A DNA stretch of 41,923 bases, taken from IMG/VR virus record IMGVR_UViG_3300025645_000151, positions 1-41,923 of that record; one strand, 5' to 3'. Below the pieces are notes generated by a model, which was not told the DNA's origin, made no database searches, and saw only the letters and a list, made by a program, of their open reading frames with translations. A program made the translations under genes and the position numbers. This DNA is from a virus. This document shows positions 10,543 to 23,558 of the stretch, piece by piece; the first letter of the stretch is position 1; each line of letters begins with the position of its first letter.

Positions 10543-12021
10543 TCAAGAACCTATTACATGGATTGTAGATGATCTGGAATCTGTGCGAACAAAGATCTTG
10601 GATGGATCTAAGATGCTTATGAATAACTCTTCGCCAGGAAGAAGGGGGAAACCATTACTTGTGCTATTCACAAGAGAAGTTGCACCCACAAAAATACTTC
10701 CTATATTACTAGAAGAAGATTTAATCGTCACACCATTTTGTAGTGTTGCTGAAGCAAGAGGTTTACCAGCACCAGAAACCTTAACAGTGGCAACATAAAT
10801 CTGACTAGGAGGAGTAACTCGATCCATACTAGTCTTCACTAGTTTATCGTTTCCTACTGTTACTACAGAATCAGAGAGTGTCGTTAGTGAAGTGTTTGCG
10901 GTGTCTACCTTAGCACCAACTCCAGATACAGTGTTGTTGAGAGTGCCAATCTTTTGATTGGCTTGTGTAATCTGAGCGGCAGTAGTGGCACCGTGAGTCA
11001 CTAGATCACCGACCACTGTAACTTGATCAGAGGCAGTTAGATCACGAATATCAAGATCGGTGGCAGAGACGACAACCGAGTCTCCCGCACCTTCTCCTTG
11101 GACCGTTACAGGGACCATTCCTGCTCTACCCTCGACTGCTAGGGTGGTTCCAGCGGTGTTAGAGACCCCGATATCGCTTGCTACATTGACTGAGAACGTA
11201 ACTCCAGTGACACTATCGAACGCGACCTTCAGAGCGTCTCCAGAGACTCCTAGAGCGGTCCCTGCTGCGTAGAGATCGACTGGGAGGGTCGTACCTCCAG
11301 CAGAGTTATATACCGCTACAGAGTCCGTTCCTGCTGCGAGATCCCGTATGTCAAGATCAGTTGCAATGGCAGTAACGGTTCCAGTGACTCCCACGTTAGA
11401 GGCAGTAGTACCAACCACAGTGACAACATCAGTGGCAGTTAAGTTACGAATATCAAGATCAGTGGCAGATACGGAAACTGCCATTCCACCAGAGATTCCT
11501 TGAACAGCCACATAATCAGATAGAGTAGATCCTGTGTAGCCTATTGTTCCGCCAGTTAGGTTGCGAATATCAAGATCAGTGGCAGACACAGCGAGTGCTT
11601 GTCCACCAGAGATACCCTGTACCGCTCCAGTAACTTCTACGGCAGAGTATACTGCTGGATTACCAGCAGAACCAATAACACCTGTAGCACCCGAAGTTCC
11701 CGTTACGCCACCAGCAACGATTACCTTGAGGTATGCTGCGGTGCTTCCGTAAACAGCCATCGAGTTACCGATGTTGAATGTTCCCTTGACTTTCAACTCA
11801 CCATCTTCTATAATAGATGCAGTTGATCCTCCGGAGTATCCAGAGAACAACTGAACAGGCATAGGATTGTTATTTGATACGCGAGTTGAAGTGGTGGTGT
11901 CACCAAATACGGGTTTGATGATTTGAACTTGTGCGTCTGCACTAACACCGAACCCGTCATCTGTAGCCATATTATATGTGGCACCTGAAGGTCCGCTAGC
12001 GACGATAATGTTATCAGCCAT
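10543..12021 (-). CDS. Repeat-containing phage structural protein, 492 aa
   Basis: The protein is rich in Ala, Gly, Ser, Thr and Val and carries four copies of a T-D-L-D-I-R-(N/D)-L unit, three of them preceded by VSA and two by VQGISGG. This is characteristic of elongated beta-structured virion proteins. A helical stretch (AAQITQANQKIGTLNNTVSG) near residue 350 may be a trimerising coil. The C-terminal part is another beta domain. GGAG precedes ATG 12021. It lies directly upstream of the SleB-fusion gene, so the two may assemble on the same structure. Tail fibre, head decoration and neck fibre are all possible; the sequence does not decide. Confidence 0.65.
   Translation of the reverse strand: MADNIIVASGPSGATYNMATDDGFGVSADAQVQIIKPVFGDTTTSTRVSNNNPMPVQLFSGYSGGSTASIIEDGELKVKGTFNIGNSMAVYGSTAAYLKVIVAGGVTGTSGATGVIGSAGNPAVYSAVEVTGAVQGISGGQALAVSATDLDIRNLTGGTIGYTGSTLSDYVAVQGISGGMAVSVSATDLDIRNLTATDVVTVVGTTASNVGVTGTVTAIATDLDIRDLAAGTDSVAVYNSAGGTTLPVDLYAAGTALGVSGDALKVAFDSVTGVTFSVNVASDIGVSNTAGTTLAVEGRAGMVPVTVQGEGAGDSVVVSATDLDIRDLTASDQVTVVGDLVTHGATTAAQITQANQKIGTLNNTVSGVGAKVDTANTSLTTLSDSVVTVGNDKLVKTSMDRVTPPSQIYVATVKVSGAGKPLASATLQNGVTIKSSSSNIGSIFVGATSLVNSTSNGFPLLPGEELFISILDPSKIFVRTDSRSSTIHVIGS
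11035..11592 (-). repeat. Four coding repeats of the TDLDIR unit
   Basis: On the plus strand, near-identical copies of a segment containing atatcaagatc(a/g)gt(g/t)gc occur at about 11047, 11347, 11449 and 11568. Each encodes A-T-D-L-D-I-R on the minus strand. The copies are close at the DNA level, consistent with recent internal duplication or gene conversion. Confidence 0.65.
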
Positions 12022-13586: not shown

Positions 13587-16058
13587 TTATCCAAACCTAG
13601 CAGCAGAGAATCTAGATCCACGGTTTACCATTTGAGATGCCATGAATGATGCTTCCTCTTGTGACATTGATACGCTACTAAATGTGTTGTTATTATTAGT
13701 AGTTGATGTAGATGATGGAGCAACTATGTTTGTATTACCATCGGAACCAGATGAGGACATACCTGCTTCATTTCTAGTCGAGCGATCAATCTGACTGGAG
13801 GTGTTCATCGATAGATCTCGTCTTCCTGCTATCCCTTCACCACCAGCAGATCCATTAGAACTACTTAATGATTCACTTATTCTACTCGCTGCTTCCGCCG
13901 TTGCTGGATTGAAAGTTGCTGTAGCGGTATAACCATCACCTGTTGGTTTTACATCTGTAACAACACCTGGCGGGAGAGTGCTTACTCCCATTTTAGACTT
14001 AAGATCCTCTCTGGCTCTGAAACTGGCTTTGCGTTGTGCTGCTATATCCTGACTACTGGACGATGTTCTAGGTGTAGCACTTCCCGTACCTACCATTGGT
14101 CCTGTTTGTGGTGTTGTGGATAGGTTGGAAACATCACCCGAAGACATCATACTTTGTTCATTCGTATTTGGTGATAACTCAGAACTATTGACATTTGCTG
14201 GAGTTATAGATGGAGTTTCTTCTTCGTCTAGGCCAATGATACTACCGAGAACGGGAATCTTTTCTAGCACATTATACACATTTTCTCCACCGACCCAACC
14301 AGCAAGACTACTACCAATATAGTCGCCAAGATATCCACCAGCGAAGGATCCCGCGAGGGTTCCTACTATGGGGACGGGAATCAAAGTACCAAGTGCCGCT
14401 CCTCCTAATGATCCCAAAGCCATACCCAATGCTGCACCTAGAGATTTACCTATCGCTTCTTTTTTCTCTTTAACAGATAGAGATGGATCATTTTTGATAG
14501 TATTAATATCAATAAGAGAAATCAATCCTGAGATAGCAGGACCAATGATTGGTAGTTTTTTACCAATAGCCTTTAGTATTGGTCCTGCTTGCTTTTTAAG
14601 TGCCTTCATCGCAGGTCCAGTTGCTAGATTCTTTGCGGCAGAAATTCCACTACCGACGACATTCTTTGCAGCAGAGAATCCACGACCAACAAAATCTTTT
14701 CCTGTTTTAATCGCACCCTTTGCTCGATCAAACATTCTACCAAAGAACCCTCTTGGTTTCGGTGCTGTGGTAGGCGCTGGGGGAGGAGGTGCCGGCGCAC
14801 CACCTGGCATTGGAGGAGGAGTTGAGGGTGTGCGTGGAGGTGTGACTGAAGGTGTGGGTGTTTTACCCTTACCAAAACCCAAAACACTCTTGACTTTTTC
14901 CTTGATAAAGCCGCTGATGCCCAGGCCGCCGGTGAGGCTGATTCCTAATGCTCCCATAACATTACTAAAGATGGTTCCTATTATTCCACCATCACCATCT
15001 CCACCTTCTCCATCTCCACCAATATCTGGGAGATCTAGACTTCCACCAAGTCCAGCCGAAGCAAGACTTGCAGCCCTTTCACCTTCTAGTTTATTCTCTC
15101 GTTCTTTTGCTTTATCACCACTTTTAACAGAGACAGATTGTGCTATAGTTGTTAGAGATTCAGTTTGAGTTTCCTCTTGCTTATCTTCTAGTTTTTCTTC
15201 TCTTTGTTTCGATTTATCAATCTTGAGACTATCTTCTATGTTGGATAGTGATTTCGTTTGTAACTTTAGTTCTTTCTCGATGACATTTAAAGAGAGACCA
15301 GATGCAGATGAAGGTACAGGCGAAGAACTAGATGCTACACCGCCACTTACAGGACTGACTTCTGGACTATCATTAGATGAAACCAAAGAGGGCGTACTTA
15401 TACCAAGACCAGAGAGTCCTGTTGACTTAGCCTCAAATCCTGCTGCTTGAAGTTGTTCACCAATAGCATTCTGTATAGCCTCATCTGGAGCCCCGCCGGC
15501 GAGTTGATCTAGCAACAACAAAAGTTCTTCTTTTGTTGTAATACCCATTTGAATCAGGGTATCAATCAGAACTTCTGATATATTATCATCACCCTTGTAT
15601 GAGTTTTTTACGGACTGTATTAACTTAGCATATCCTACAGGGTTTTCTTTTTCAGATTCTCTTATTATTTTTAGAAAGTTTTTTCTTTTATTCTGTAGTT
15701 CTTCGTATGCTTTCTTTTGTAGGTTTCTTCTTCTGAAGAACTTAACAACACCTGCGCCTGGTAAATTGCCTGCGATTTCAGCACCTTTTTCTTTGGCAGT
15801 ACCAACGACAACCGAAGTTAAACCTTCTGGTTTTTCTGCACCAAATTCTGTAGCAGCACTTCTAGATTGAACCCCAGTTTTCTTTAGATCTTTAAGACTC
15901 TGTTTATTCAGGTTTTTATTAGCAATACTAGAACCAGTTCTCTGGTCTCTTTGACGTTCCTTAATGAACTTCTGCATCAACTTCTGTGTACGCAGAATTT
16001 CTTTTTCTCGCTTGATTTCTTCAGCAGTTTTAGGTTTTTGTTGTGGTGTCTGTGCCAT
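13587..16058 (-). CDS. Tape-measure-type tail protein (gp29-like), 823 aa
   Basis: The N-terminal third is highly charged and helical (EEIKREKEILRTQKLMQKFI, KKAYEELQNKRKNFLKIIRE), as in tape-measure proteins. A Ser-rich linker and a proline-rich hinge (about residue 415) lead to a hydrophobic, Gly/Ala-rich core (GAALGMALGSLGGAALGTLI) that could insert into the host membrane. The C-terminal part is Ser/Thr/Asn-rich. Tape measures set tail length and aid DNA entry; at the usual 0.15 nm per residue this one would span roughly 120 nm. It follows the frameshift-linked chaperone pair, the conserved order in many phages. AAAGG precedes ATG 16058. T4 gp29 is 590 residues. Confidence 0.75.
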   Translation of the reverse strand: MAQTPQQKPKTAEEIKREKEILRTQKLMQKFIKERQRDQRTGSSIANKNLNKQSLKDLKKTGVQSRSAATEFGAEKPEGLTSVVVGTAKEKGAEIAGNLPGAGVVKFFRRRNLQKKAYEELQNKRKNFLKIIRESEKENPVGYAKLIQSVKNSYKGDDNISEVLIDTLIQMGITTKEELLLLLDQLAGGAPDEAIQNAIGEQLQAAGFEAKSTGLSGLGISTPSLVSSNDSPEVSPVSGGVASSSSPVPSSASGLSLNVIEKELKLQTKSLSNIEDSLKIDKSKQREEKLEDKQEETQTESLTTIAQSVSVKSGDKAKERENKLEGERAASLASAGLGGSLDLPDIGGDGEGGDGDGGIIGTIFSNVMGALGISLTGGLGISGFIKEKVKSVLGFGKGKTPTPSVTPPRTPSTPPPMPGGAPAPPPPAPTTAPKPRGFFGRMFDRAKGAIKTGKDFVGRGFSAAKNVVGSGISAAKNLATGPAMKALKKQAGPILKAIGKKLPIIGPAISGLISLIDINTIKNDPSLSVKEKKEAIGKSLGAALGMALGSLGGAALGTLIPVPIVGTLAGSFAGGYLGDYIGSSLAGWVGGENVYNVLEKIPVLGSIIGLDEEETPSITPANVNSSELSPNTNEQSMMSSGDVSNLSTTPQTGPMVGTGSATPRTSSSSQDIAAQRKASFRAREDLKSKMGVSTLPPGVVTDVKPTGDGYTATATFNPATAEAASRISESLSSSNGSAGGEGIAGRRDLSMNTSSQIDRSTRNEAGMSSSGSDGNTNIVAPSSTSTTNNNNTFSSVSMSQEEASFMASQMVNRGSRFSAARFG

Positions 16059-16060
16059 GT

Positions 16061-16228
16061 TTACCTTTTGTTTTTTGCTTTAATCTTTTCTTCTTCTTTC
16101 AACCAAGCCTGTAACTGATAAATATAGACATCTCTTTCCCACGGTATCCATTTCATTATGTCGTCGTATGAATACTTATAATGGTGCATTAGTTGAAACA
16201 CCAATTTCATGAACCCCTCTAGATTCAT
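16061..16228 (-). CDS. Small chaperone partner (T-like) overlapping the gp26-like gene, 55 aa
   Basis: This ORF starts at ATG 16228 in an ATGA overlap with the preceding stop and ends just before the tape-measure gene. It encodes a compact helical protein with YKYSYDDIMKWIPWERDVYI and a Lys/Glu-rich end (WLKEEEKIKAKNKR). That shape is typical of the T part of tail-assembly chaperones and of small baseplate-hub assembly proteins. Its frame is exactly -1 relative to the upstream gene and is reached by a slip at the T TTT TTC heptamer, so it may exist mainly as a C-terminal extension. No ribosome site is obvious at either ATG (16228 or 16210), which favours coupling or frameshifting. Confidence 0.7.
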   Translation of the reverse strand: MNLEGFMKLVFQLMHHYKYSYDDIMKWIPWERDVYIYQLQAWLKEEEKIKAKNKR

Positions 16229-16935
16229 GTGGGAGACACTAAACCGAAAAAATCATTTAACCCACTGATTTCTATTTTATTGCCATCTACTTCTAATGCG
16301 TGATGTAGTTGAGGTGATTTTTCGGCGTATTTAAGTAATGCCGCAAACTGAGTTTCTGTCATGCTCTCTACAAACTCTACCATCTCTTTATGTGAGAGAT
16401 CTGTGCCGCTAAGAGACTCTTCTTTGATAGTCACTGTGTCTATCATCGACGCTACCATCTTGATGTAAGTATCTTGGTCTTTATTCCAAATTTTTATTTC
16501 ATTTTTGATGACATCATTTAGAGTGAGTTCTCTTAACTTTATAGTGATATTTTCTGTTACACTAAAAGTATTTTTCTTTGGTCCCGTTCTCTTTGGTGCT
16601 TTTATTGTGCGAAGATCTAGATTTACAGGCTTTTTACTTGAGCCATCACTATAGATTAGTTCTAGATTCTCACCAACAGAACGTTCTCGTAGTTTAACAA
16701 AAAGATATTCTGCTTCACCTAAAGATATATTGTCTAGATTCAAATTATCAAAACAAGCAATCAGAATATTTTTGATCGCCCTTATGATATCCAGTTCATT
16801 TCCTTCTTCTGATACTAAGAGTAGATTCTTTTCTTCTTTAACCAGAAAAGGTCTAAAAGATAAATTATCCTCGACTGACGGAACTTTTATACTATAATCA
16901 GGCAGTTCTGACCTTAACATTTCAACTAACTTCAT
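16225..16935 (-). CDS. gp26-like baseplate/tail assembly protein (G-like chaperone), 236 aa
   Basis: Residues about 20-45 (VEDNLSFRPFLVKEEKNLLL) carry the FRPFLVKEEK motif of the T4 base-plate protein family that includes gp26. The rest is helical and acidic, with segments such as EAEYLFVKLRERSVGE and HKEMVEFVESMTETQFAALL. T4 gp26 is a baseplate hub assembly factor of similar size. In this phage it lies directly before a tape-measure gene and overlaps a small ORF, the exact position of the G and GT chaperones of other tailed phages. It therefore probably helps fold or load the tape measure. AAAGGA precedes ATG 16935. Confidence 0.75.
   Translation of the reverse strand: MKLVEMLRSELPDYSIKVPSVEDNLSFRPFLVKEEKNLLLVSEEGNELDIIRAIKNILIACFDNLNLDNISLGEAEYLFVKLRERSVGENLELIYSDGSSKKPVNLDLRTIKAPKRTGPKKNTFSVTENITIKLRELTLNDVIKNEIKIWNKDQDTYIKMVASMIDTVTIKEESLSGTDLSHKEMVEFVESMTETQFAALLKYAEKSPQLHHALEVDGNKIEISGLNDFFGLVSPT
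16246..16252 (-). other. -1 frameshift heptamer T TTT TTC at the end of the gp26-like gene
   Basis: Reading the minus strand, codons GAT TTT TTC form T TTT TTC in the correct phase for X XXY YYZ slippage, six codons before the stop. A -1 slip continues CGG TTT AGT GTC TCC CAC ATG, exactly the frame of the 55-residue ORF. An inverted repeat CATGAA/TTCATG with a ten-base loop lies about 16 bases downstream and could act as a stimulatory hairpin. Confidence 0.65.
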
Positions 16936-16948
16936 TTACCAAATCCTT

Positions 16949-17485
16949 TCATATTATTTCACCATTTATAAACAAATCAAAGTCACGGAACGAGAATGAC
17001 ACATTTCCTGTTTGATATGAGTTGGTTGATGCCATATCAAGTTCAAGCCCATTTATCGATACAGGGAAAACATCTTTTAATTTATAGGTCGTTACACTTG
17101 TCTCGTCTCGACTACTATAGTTTATTTCAATACTACCAACAAAATCATTATAATATCCTGCTCTATCTTCACCGAATATTATCTGATTACTCCATCTTTG
17201 AATGTATTCGTGGACGTTTTGTTGGTACATGTAAGATAGTTCAAAATCACCACTAAACACTTTAGCATATGGAACGTTGTAAACAGGGCCCCATAGAGTT
17301 TTTTCGTCTGTTGCTATTCTTTTGGTTGGAGTAGTGCAACTCAACGCATGAAAATCACCAGCGCCACTGGACAATATTCCTACGGCTGATGGACCAATAA
17401 GACTAATATCAAAAGTATATTTGTCGAAAATCTCTCTAGGAGTTTTCGTAGTAGACTTAACTTTGTTAAAACCTGCTTGTGACAT
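16949..17485 (-). CDS. Tail-tube-fold protein (gp19/gp54 type), 178 aa
   Basis: The size, strand content and features match T4-like tail tube proteins. These include an early DISLIGPSAVGI segment, WGPVYNVPYAKVFSGDFELSY, YIQRWSNQIIF with a following Tyr-rich loop, and a late V-x-F-S-F-x-F strand (NVSFSFRDFDLFI). Proteins of this fold form the tail tube (gp19, 163 residues) or the tube-initiating ring on the baseplate (gp54, 320 residues). The position next to tape-measure and baseplate genes, away from any sheath gene, favours a baseplate-proximal tube or initiator role. GGAG precedes ATG 17485, and a short gap separates it from gp4 upstream. Confidence 0.65.
   Translation of the reverse strand: MSQAGFNKVKSTTKTPREIFDKYTFDISLIGPSAVGILSSGAGDFHALSCTTPTKRIATDEKTLWGPVYNVPYAKVFSGDFELSYMYQQNVHEYIQRWSNQIIFGEDRAGYYNDFVGSIEINYSSRDETSVTTYKLKDVFPVSINGLELDMASTNSYQTGNVSFSFRDFDLFINGEII
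16963..16970 (-). promoter_or_regulatory. Possible late box (TATAAATG) ahead of the gp26-like gene
   Basis: The minus strand has TATAAATG, one mismatch from TATAAATA, about 27 bases before ATG 16935. This is the same spacing as the exact box at 2084-2091. It lies in the last codons of the tube-like gene. Chance occurrence in AT-rich DNA is quite possible. Confidence 0.3.
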
Positions 17486-23171: not shown

Positions 23172-23558
23172 ATGGCTAAAACAGATAAGTTTAGATATTC
23201 CGATCTCGATTTTAACTTCGCTCAATCCACGACTAAGGATGTTGCTCGAAAGTTCGATAACAATGCAATCAAGCAGTCGTTAAGGAATGTGGTCCTTACT
23301 AACTTCTATGAAAGACCTTTTCGTCCATCGCTTGGTGCCAATCTTGTTGCTAAACTTTTCGATCAACCATCGCCTGGTATTGTTTCCGAAGTTCAATCTG
23401 ATGTAAGAAGAGCAATCGTGACATTTGAACCCCGAGTTAACTTGATAAATGTTTTGGCTGAATATAATGATATAAATCAAGAACTAAAGGTACAAGTAGA
23501 ATATAGTTTTTTAGATGAAGATGATGTACTAGACATAACCATAGAAAGAGTAAGATAA
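23172..23558 (+). CDS. 25: Baseplate wedge protein gp25
   Basis: The length (128 residues) matches T4 gp25 (132). The core LRNVVLTNFYERPFRPSLGA with the following LFDQPSP and DVRRAIVTFEPRV is the signature of the gp25/W family, whose EPR motif forms part of the wedge core bundle that nucleates sheath assembly. The stop overlaps the gp6 start (TAATG), indicating translational coupling. Confidence 0.95.
   Translation: MAKTDKFRYSDLDFNFAQSTTKDVARKFDNNAIKQSLRNVVLTNFYERPFRPSLGANLVAKLFDQPSPGIVSEVQSDVRRAIVTFEPRVNLINVLAEYNDINQELKVQVEYSFLDEDDVLDITIERVR

Follow-up and report, generated by a model that had tools for sequence, protein, structure and literature searches.

The window analysed here, a viral record of 41,923 bases (IMGVR_UViG_3300025645_000151), carries on its minus strand a gp26-like gene that sits between a tube/gp54-like gene and an open reading frame (ORF) of 823 aa, the latter tape-measure-like by position, size and relatives' annotations alone. 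The features of the region are:

16949–17485, minus strand: upstream gene, tail-tube/gp54-like (phrog_45 tail tube, E 2.4e-16)
16225–16935, minus strand: gp26-like gene, whose zero-frame product of 236 aa is the proposed short chaperone form, TAC-N (PF12322, phrog_150)
16246–16252, minus strand: slippery heptamer T TTT TTC in the −1 slip phase (X XXY YYZ), of a motif class found in 99 of 101 clustered loci
16061–16246, minus strand: −1-frame extension after the slip, 61 residues and TAA, a gp51-like C-terminal domain that would complete the proposed long form, TAC-NC (phrog_634; alignment of 38 sequences)
16208–16229, minus strand: hairpin CATGAATCT-AGAG-GGGTTCATG, a candidate stimulator (9 bp, G-U pairs counted; −9.7 kcal/mol when 40 nt are folded)
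16061–16228, minus strand: ORF of 55 aa, whose ATG at 16228 overlaps the gp26 stop as ATGA (ORF list)
13587–16058, minus strand: next gene, 823 aa, likely a tape measure protein (position, size, relatives' annotations)

The gp26-like gene is a member of the T4 gp26 family: it matches PF12322 with an E-value of 3.4e-44 and 151.6 bits, against a curated cut-off of 24.5, and phrog_150 ("baseplate hub") with an E-value of 6.5e-46. Its last codons read GAT TTT TTC GGT TTA GTG TCT CCC ACA TGA, the stop lying at 16227–16225. An earlier, sequence-only reading of this DNA had placed T TTT TTC in the slipping phase six codons before the stop, and reading the codons confirms it: the heptamer occupies 16252–16246 and is separated from the stop by six sense codons. 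That reading had also held that a −1 slip enters the frame of the overlapping 55-residue ORF and that this ORF ends just before the next gene. Both points agree with what we found, as no stop interrupts the −1 frame between the heptamer and a TAA at 16063–16061 and the next ORF starts at 16058. This is the layout expected of the G/GT type, in which a phase-correct heptamer stands shortly before the stop of the first ORF and the −1 frame runs open into the second. The predicted fusion has 230 + 61 = 291 aa.

With an E-value of 5.5e-17, the 55-aa part of the extension matches phrog_634, "baseplate hub assembly catalyst"; Pfam and NCBIfam gave no match for the extension. T4 gp51 carries a gp26-like N-terminal domain and a phrog_634 C-terminus in one frame. 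The small ORF of the window holds the C-terminal segment only, and the gp51 architecture is attained in the window solely via the −1 fusion. The 55-aa ORF is probably not an independent gene. The window gp26 lacks two Cys pairs (CxxC-like) that are found in many relatives; in the alignment they are also missing from two related loci, L005 and L006, and a zinc-ribbon-like site seems to have been lost in the clade of these three sequences.

HTVC008M and Cr30 have an annotated tape measure gene close behind the gp51-like ORF, a single ORF separating the two. The 823-aa ORF of the window matched no Pfam or NCBIfam model, and a local stretch of it resembles an 868-aa ORF of Syn1 (E 1e-12); its position, its size and the annotations of its relatives make it a likely tape measure gene. 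Elsewhere in the window, an ORF of 492 aa (10543–12021, minus strand) contains repeated "SATDLDIR"-type units and perhaps encodes a fibre or decoration protein.

Conservation of the heptamer and the −1 frame

The sequence-only reading had proposed an alignment of related phages, asking whether heptamer and overlap are conserved, and had named as evidence against itself any relatives that lack the heptamer and carry an independently started small gene. Loci were picked by likeness to the window gp26 (48 by protein, the best 80 of 592 relatives by a profile of 18, and named phages); they are a smaller part of the 589 phage records that carry a gp26 match. This gave 138 sequences, i.e. 137 loci and the window. 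T4 (L131; no match) and a locus cut before the stop (L011) were dropped, leaving 136, and removal of three with a cut −1 frame left 133, which clustered at 85% nucleotide identity into 101.

TTTTTTN at the same place, together with a −1 frame open into a gp51-like segment, was found in 99 of the 101 clustered loci, so the relatives sampled do not show the pattern that had been named as contrary evidence; in T4-type phages the extension is carried fused in a full-length gp51. The two remaining loci, left out of the later counts of 99, are L038, which has G TTT TTT in place of TTTTTTN and keeps the −1 frame, and Salmonella phage STP4-a (L137), a T4-type phage with gp25 downstream. The heptamer starts 7–25 nt before the gp26 stop, and its last base is C in 75 loci, A in 12, T in 11 and G in one. 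Seven loci (L041, L042, L043, L045, L046, L047 and L048) have eight consecutive T's, the eighth of which opens the zero-frame stop codon (TTT TTT TGA or TAA); a pause on that codon may assist slipping there.

Elsewhere within the same 99 gp26 ORFs, TTTTTTN is found 12 times in 22,460 codon positions. The amino acids at the site and the codon usage of gp26 together predict T TTT TTN in 0.43 of the loci on average; the 99 were selected for having the motif and are kin, their counts are not independent events, and we claim no probability for this comparison of codon choice. Among the 24 window ORFs taken as genes, a phase-correct XXXYYYZ stands at 61 of 12,123 codon positions and TTTTTTN at four. 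One of these four is a T TTT TTA about 50 nt before the stop of a gp25-like gene (23172–23558, plus strand), probably a chance occurrence. The heptamer by itself is mildly unusual; its conservation together with the −1 frame far exceeds chance.

The same family in T4-type phages

We compared the locus with 13 T4-type phages, several of them close kin (T4, STP4-a, CC31, ESh27, KP179, PWKp18, VR25, PS2, Mokit, 4S, G37-3, phiAS4 and ABTNLPp2). In T4 and STP4-a, gp26 consists of PF12322 only, and gp51 of a PF12322 domain followed by a phrog_634 C-terminus. The T4-type gp51 adjoins gp26 on the opposite strand; its C-terminus was seen in 11 of the 13 phages, and for CC31 and ABTNLPp2 gp51 is taken from the annotation. 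A profile built from the fused proteins aligns to gp51 in one stretch that runs through the junction (profile positions 145–281 in T4), the diverged first half of gp51 staying unaligned. The same profile aligns to T4 gp26 up to Phe-Phe-x-Leu, which is the slip point. Hence T4 gp26 and the window protein are of one family with the same Phe-Phe-x-Leu end point, and T4 gp51 and the window fusion both join a gp26-like domain to the same C-terminal segment. The difference is that the 13 T4-type phages have the two forms as two divergent genes with no heptamer in gp26, whereas the window has one locus with a heptamer.

An in-phase TTTTTTN was found nowhere in the gp26 of any of the 13. Phe-Phe is kept in nine of them, and the first Phe is TTC in all nine. 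Close to their ends, the gp26 genes of STP4-a and ABTNLPp2 carry an in-phase A AAG GGG, with the −1 frame closed at that point. Vibrio phage nt-1, a member of the Straboviridae, has the frameshift layout. A scan for relatives of T4 gp26 returned six IMG/VR loci. In a tree of 36 rows, which is unrooted, has long branches and leaves out CC31 and ABTNLPp2, frameshift gp26, T4-type gp26 and T4-type gp51 are each set apart by a branch (with weak support for T4-type gp26, 84/50). This unrooted tree is consistent with a single switch between the two layouts.

RNA structure downstream of the slip site

A hairpin-capable repeat about 16 bases past the heptamer had been pointed out before; it is present and longer than stated, with 9 bp at 16229–16208. 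The hairpin starts 16 nt after the heptamer, further than the usual slip-to-structure spacing of 5–9 nt, and its stem contains the ATG of the 55-aa ORF. The best fold of L005 keeps this hairpin, and L006 folds a different one.

Across the 99 loci, folding z-scores against shuffled copies average −1.28 and −1.48 for the stretches 5–55 and 5–75 nt after the heptamer, compared with 0.09 upstream and −0.15 further down in control stretches. A fixed-place 10-bp stem 5 nt past the heptamer forms at least 8 of its 10 pairs in 24 of the 99 loci, and sliding it by 1–6 nt gives at most 7. This stem is absent in the other 75, and no single downstream structure common to all 99 was found. In one clade of 23 loci, picked by a peptide motif that was chosen after the stem had been seen and therefore not blindly, the 10-bp stem has 95.7% of its cells paired, against at most 50.9% when slid. 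The covariation score of this clade lies above all 500 shuffles, and its number of pairs with two-sided change (2) was matched by 212 of the 500. A hairpin stimulator is thus likely in part of the family; the hairpin of the window is a candidate at a greater distance.

We also considered a Shine-Dalgarno-like stimulator upstream, as GG stands at −11/−10 in 99% of the loci. These bases belong to a Gly codon that follows a mostly Glu codon, and the Gly is also present, by eye, in all 13 T4-type gp26 ends, which have no heptamer. Protein constraint can thus explain the GG, and the reading as a stimulator is weakened.

Predicted fold of the gp26-like protein

An AlphaFold2 model of the window gp26, built from a 53-row alignment, has a pLDDT of 91.6. 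For residues 1–97 of the model the best solved structures are 3fgx (Z 7.2), the HK97 tail assembly chaperone 2ob9 (Z 6.8) and YqbN, 3klu (Z 6.8), followed by the next at Z 2.4; the guide value for such comparisons is Z 8, and these scores of 6.8–7.2 fall below it. We take 3fgx and 3klu to have the same chaperone fold as the HK97 protein. Among solved structures, the modelled N-terminal domain thus comes closest to the HK97 chaperone and the two chains resembling it, a likeness that is suggestive. Foldseek gave no match to the gp26 model in the PDB under an E-value of 0.001 and 62 matches under 0.001 among predicted viral proteins, many of them named baseplate hub subunit. By sequence, no convincing solved relative was found for the gp26 profile (best E 0.24) or for T4 gp51 (best E 1.3). 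The model of the extension consists of four helices (pLDDT 77). The tie between gp26 and the G/GT system that the sequence-only reading had drawn gains support from the T4 gp51 architecture and from this middling fold match.

Possible alternatives: separate start, slippage of transcription or a hub factor

The 55-aa ORF could be a separate gene, translated by coupling through the ATGA overlap, with the T run incidental. The overlap is there in the window, and an ATG occurs within the first 18 codons from the slip in 70 of the 99 loci. Public records also treat it as a gene of its own: ten phages of this layout (Syn1, S-H9-2, S-8S56, S-CRM01, HTVC008M, Vibrio nt-1, Vibrio Bakedbeans, Caulobacter Cr30, Rhizobium P10VF and Pseudomonas pf16) are all annotated with two coding sequences, the second starting with ATG in nine and with TTG in one, and none with the two joined. 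All ten have T TTT TTN at the place where the window has it and the second coding sequence in the −1 frame, some of these sequences being begun at an internal ATG; in Syn1 (L049, 3037–3168) and HTVC008M (L050, 3723–3860) the annotated gp51 cuts off conserved residues in this way. The ATG codons of the 70 loci lie at many differing positions; 29 loci have none within the 18 codons, 20 have no ATG, GTG or TTG, and the position of the window's ATG reads ATA in L006, whose gp26 is 48% identical. Heptamer and overlap are thus conserved and the extension has no conserved start. The heptamer is kept beyond what the amino acids need, and the residues that precede any ATG are conserved, the peptides in the alignment of 38 sequences being alike from the slip onwards (FFRxxLSHxxLExYY...). 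For the 29 loci that lack an ATG, nearest-neighbour differences in the stretch past the zero-frame stop number 64, 41 and 151 at −1-frame codon positions 1, 2 and 3, reciprocal neighbours being counted twice; by this periodicity the −1 frame is under coding constraint before any ATG. By eye, no Shine-Dalgarno sequence precedes 16228, where the ATG is enclosed in the hairpin stem, and T4 bears the same segment as a fusion. We therefore consider a separate gene very unlikely. Reinitiation could add a short free product in nt-1, Cr30, P10VF and S-CRM01, where the annotated ATG and the gp26 stop have one base in common.

A fusion might also be made without any ribosomal shift if RNA polymerase slipped on the T run and added a base to some of the mRNAs. 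The signal is indeed a pure T run, and it has seven or more T's in 11 of the 99 loci, e.g. eight in L041. Slippage of this kind usually needs 8–9 T's, longer than six, and in 88 of the 99 loci the run is of exactly six T's followed by C, A or G, with the X XXY YYZ phase kept. We judge it very unlikely as well, because the runs are so regularly of six. Of another kind is the possibility that both gp26-derived products act in hub assembly and have no chaperone role on the tape measure, so that the likeness to G/GT lies in expression only. T4 work, as passages of PMC3004832 describe it, does put gp26 and gp51 in hub assembly. On the other side stand the place of the locus ahead of the likely tape measure gene, the pair of a short and a C-terminally extended form, the N-terminal fold nearest to the HK97 chaperone, and identification as chaperones in those parts of the published work that we cite below. 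Such a restricted role seems rather unlikely, though a good deal less so than either of the other two alternatives.

Discussion

The sequences argue strongly for a single tail assembly chaperone locus that would be expressed in two lengths by programmed −1 frameshifting, which is very probably the best explanation. Such a frameshift was the main proposal of the sequence-only reading, and it is supported by the conservation of the heptamer in 99 of 101 loci, the constraint on the −1 frame, the lack of a conserved start and the existence of T4 gp51 as an in-frame counterpart. Most ribosomes would read the gp26-like gene to its TGA and make the protein of 236 aa. A minority would slip back by one base at T TTT TTC, where the Phe tRNAs of the P and A sites would pair anew with TTT-TTT, and would pass the gp26 stop in the −1 frame to make the gp26-gp51 fusion of 291 aa. 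By analogy with lambda gpG and gpGT, the short form would coat the tape measure protein, the C-terminal domain of the fusion may recruit tube subunits or hub parts, and neither form would stay in the virion. That slipping occurs, the rate or ratio at which it does so, the chaperone role and the binding partners are what we infer here.

Frameshifted chaperones are as a kind already known from lambda G/GT and from many other phages with long tails. The slip site of lambda is G GGA AAG, and that of the window T TTT TTC. The window locus further differs from gpG/gpGT in that its N-terminal part, of the gp26 family PF12322, has an additional C-terminal portion, its extension is of 61 residues and its upstream gene is gp54-like. 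In the lambda model, as set out in passages of PMC5009743, the short form lies on the tape measure and the extra domain of the long form brings tube subunits; the same passages call the G-T frameshift widely conserved "except T4". Some T4-like phages have a short gene and a longer fusion gene, according to a passage of PMC10885494. An excerpt of PMC12846349 credits poly-T slip signals in T4-like phages to Vladimirov, Gautam and Davidson (2022, Virology 566:9-15). It also describes, for Pseudomonas phage Adele and the Vandenendeviridae and Andersonviridae, a −1 shift at GTTTTT, a poly-T motif close to where the gene for the short chaperone ends, with an extension that, as here, is not annotated as part of that gene; these are families other than that of the window, and the likeness is one of description. 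Judging from these excerpts, the gp26/gp51 link is very likely already in print. The sequence-only reading was thus right that frameshifted tail chaperones are established, but its remark that a gp26 homologue as zero-frame partner is not commonly described has to be amended, as this is partly reported for T4 relatives in passages of PMC10885494 and PMC12846349. A limited literature search found no paper tying a ribosomal frameshift to cyanophage gp51, or to tail assembly or the tape measure of Pelagibacter phages. New here are this phage, the evidence from start codons and constraint, the hairpin of one clade and the contrast of TTT with TTC, some of which may be in Vladimirov et al. 2022.

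We lean slightly towards frameshifting being ancestral for the gp26/gp51 chaperone in the T4 superfamily at large, including cyanophages, a pelagiphage and Caulobacter, Rhizobium, Pseudomonas and Vibrio phages, one of them a member of the Straboviridae. The T4-type lineage would have switched once to two genes, its gp26 often keeping Phe-Phe as a non-slipping TTC-TTY, and at least one frameshifting clade would have its own RNA hairpin stimulator. One homologous locus would reach a short and a long chaperone by two routes, frameshifting or two genes, with a codon difference between them that can be tested. Frameshifting also explains a small ORF that is annotated as a separate and, in some records, truncated gene, and whose real product is probably a fusion. 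The findings support a reading in which T4 gp26 and gp51 correspond to lambda G and GT. If frameshifting is indeed ancestral and the T4-type lineage switched, the essential "hub assembly catalyst" gp51 of T4 would be a long chaperone of the GT type.
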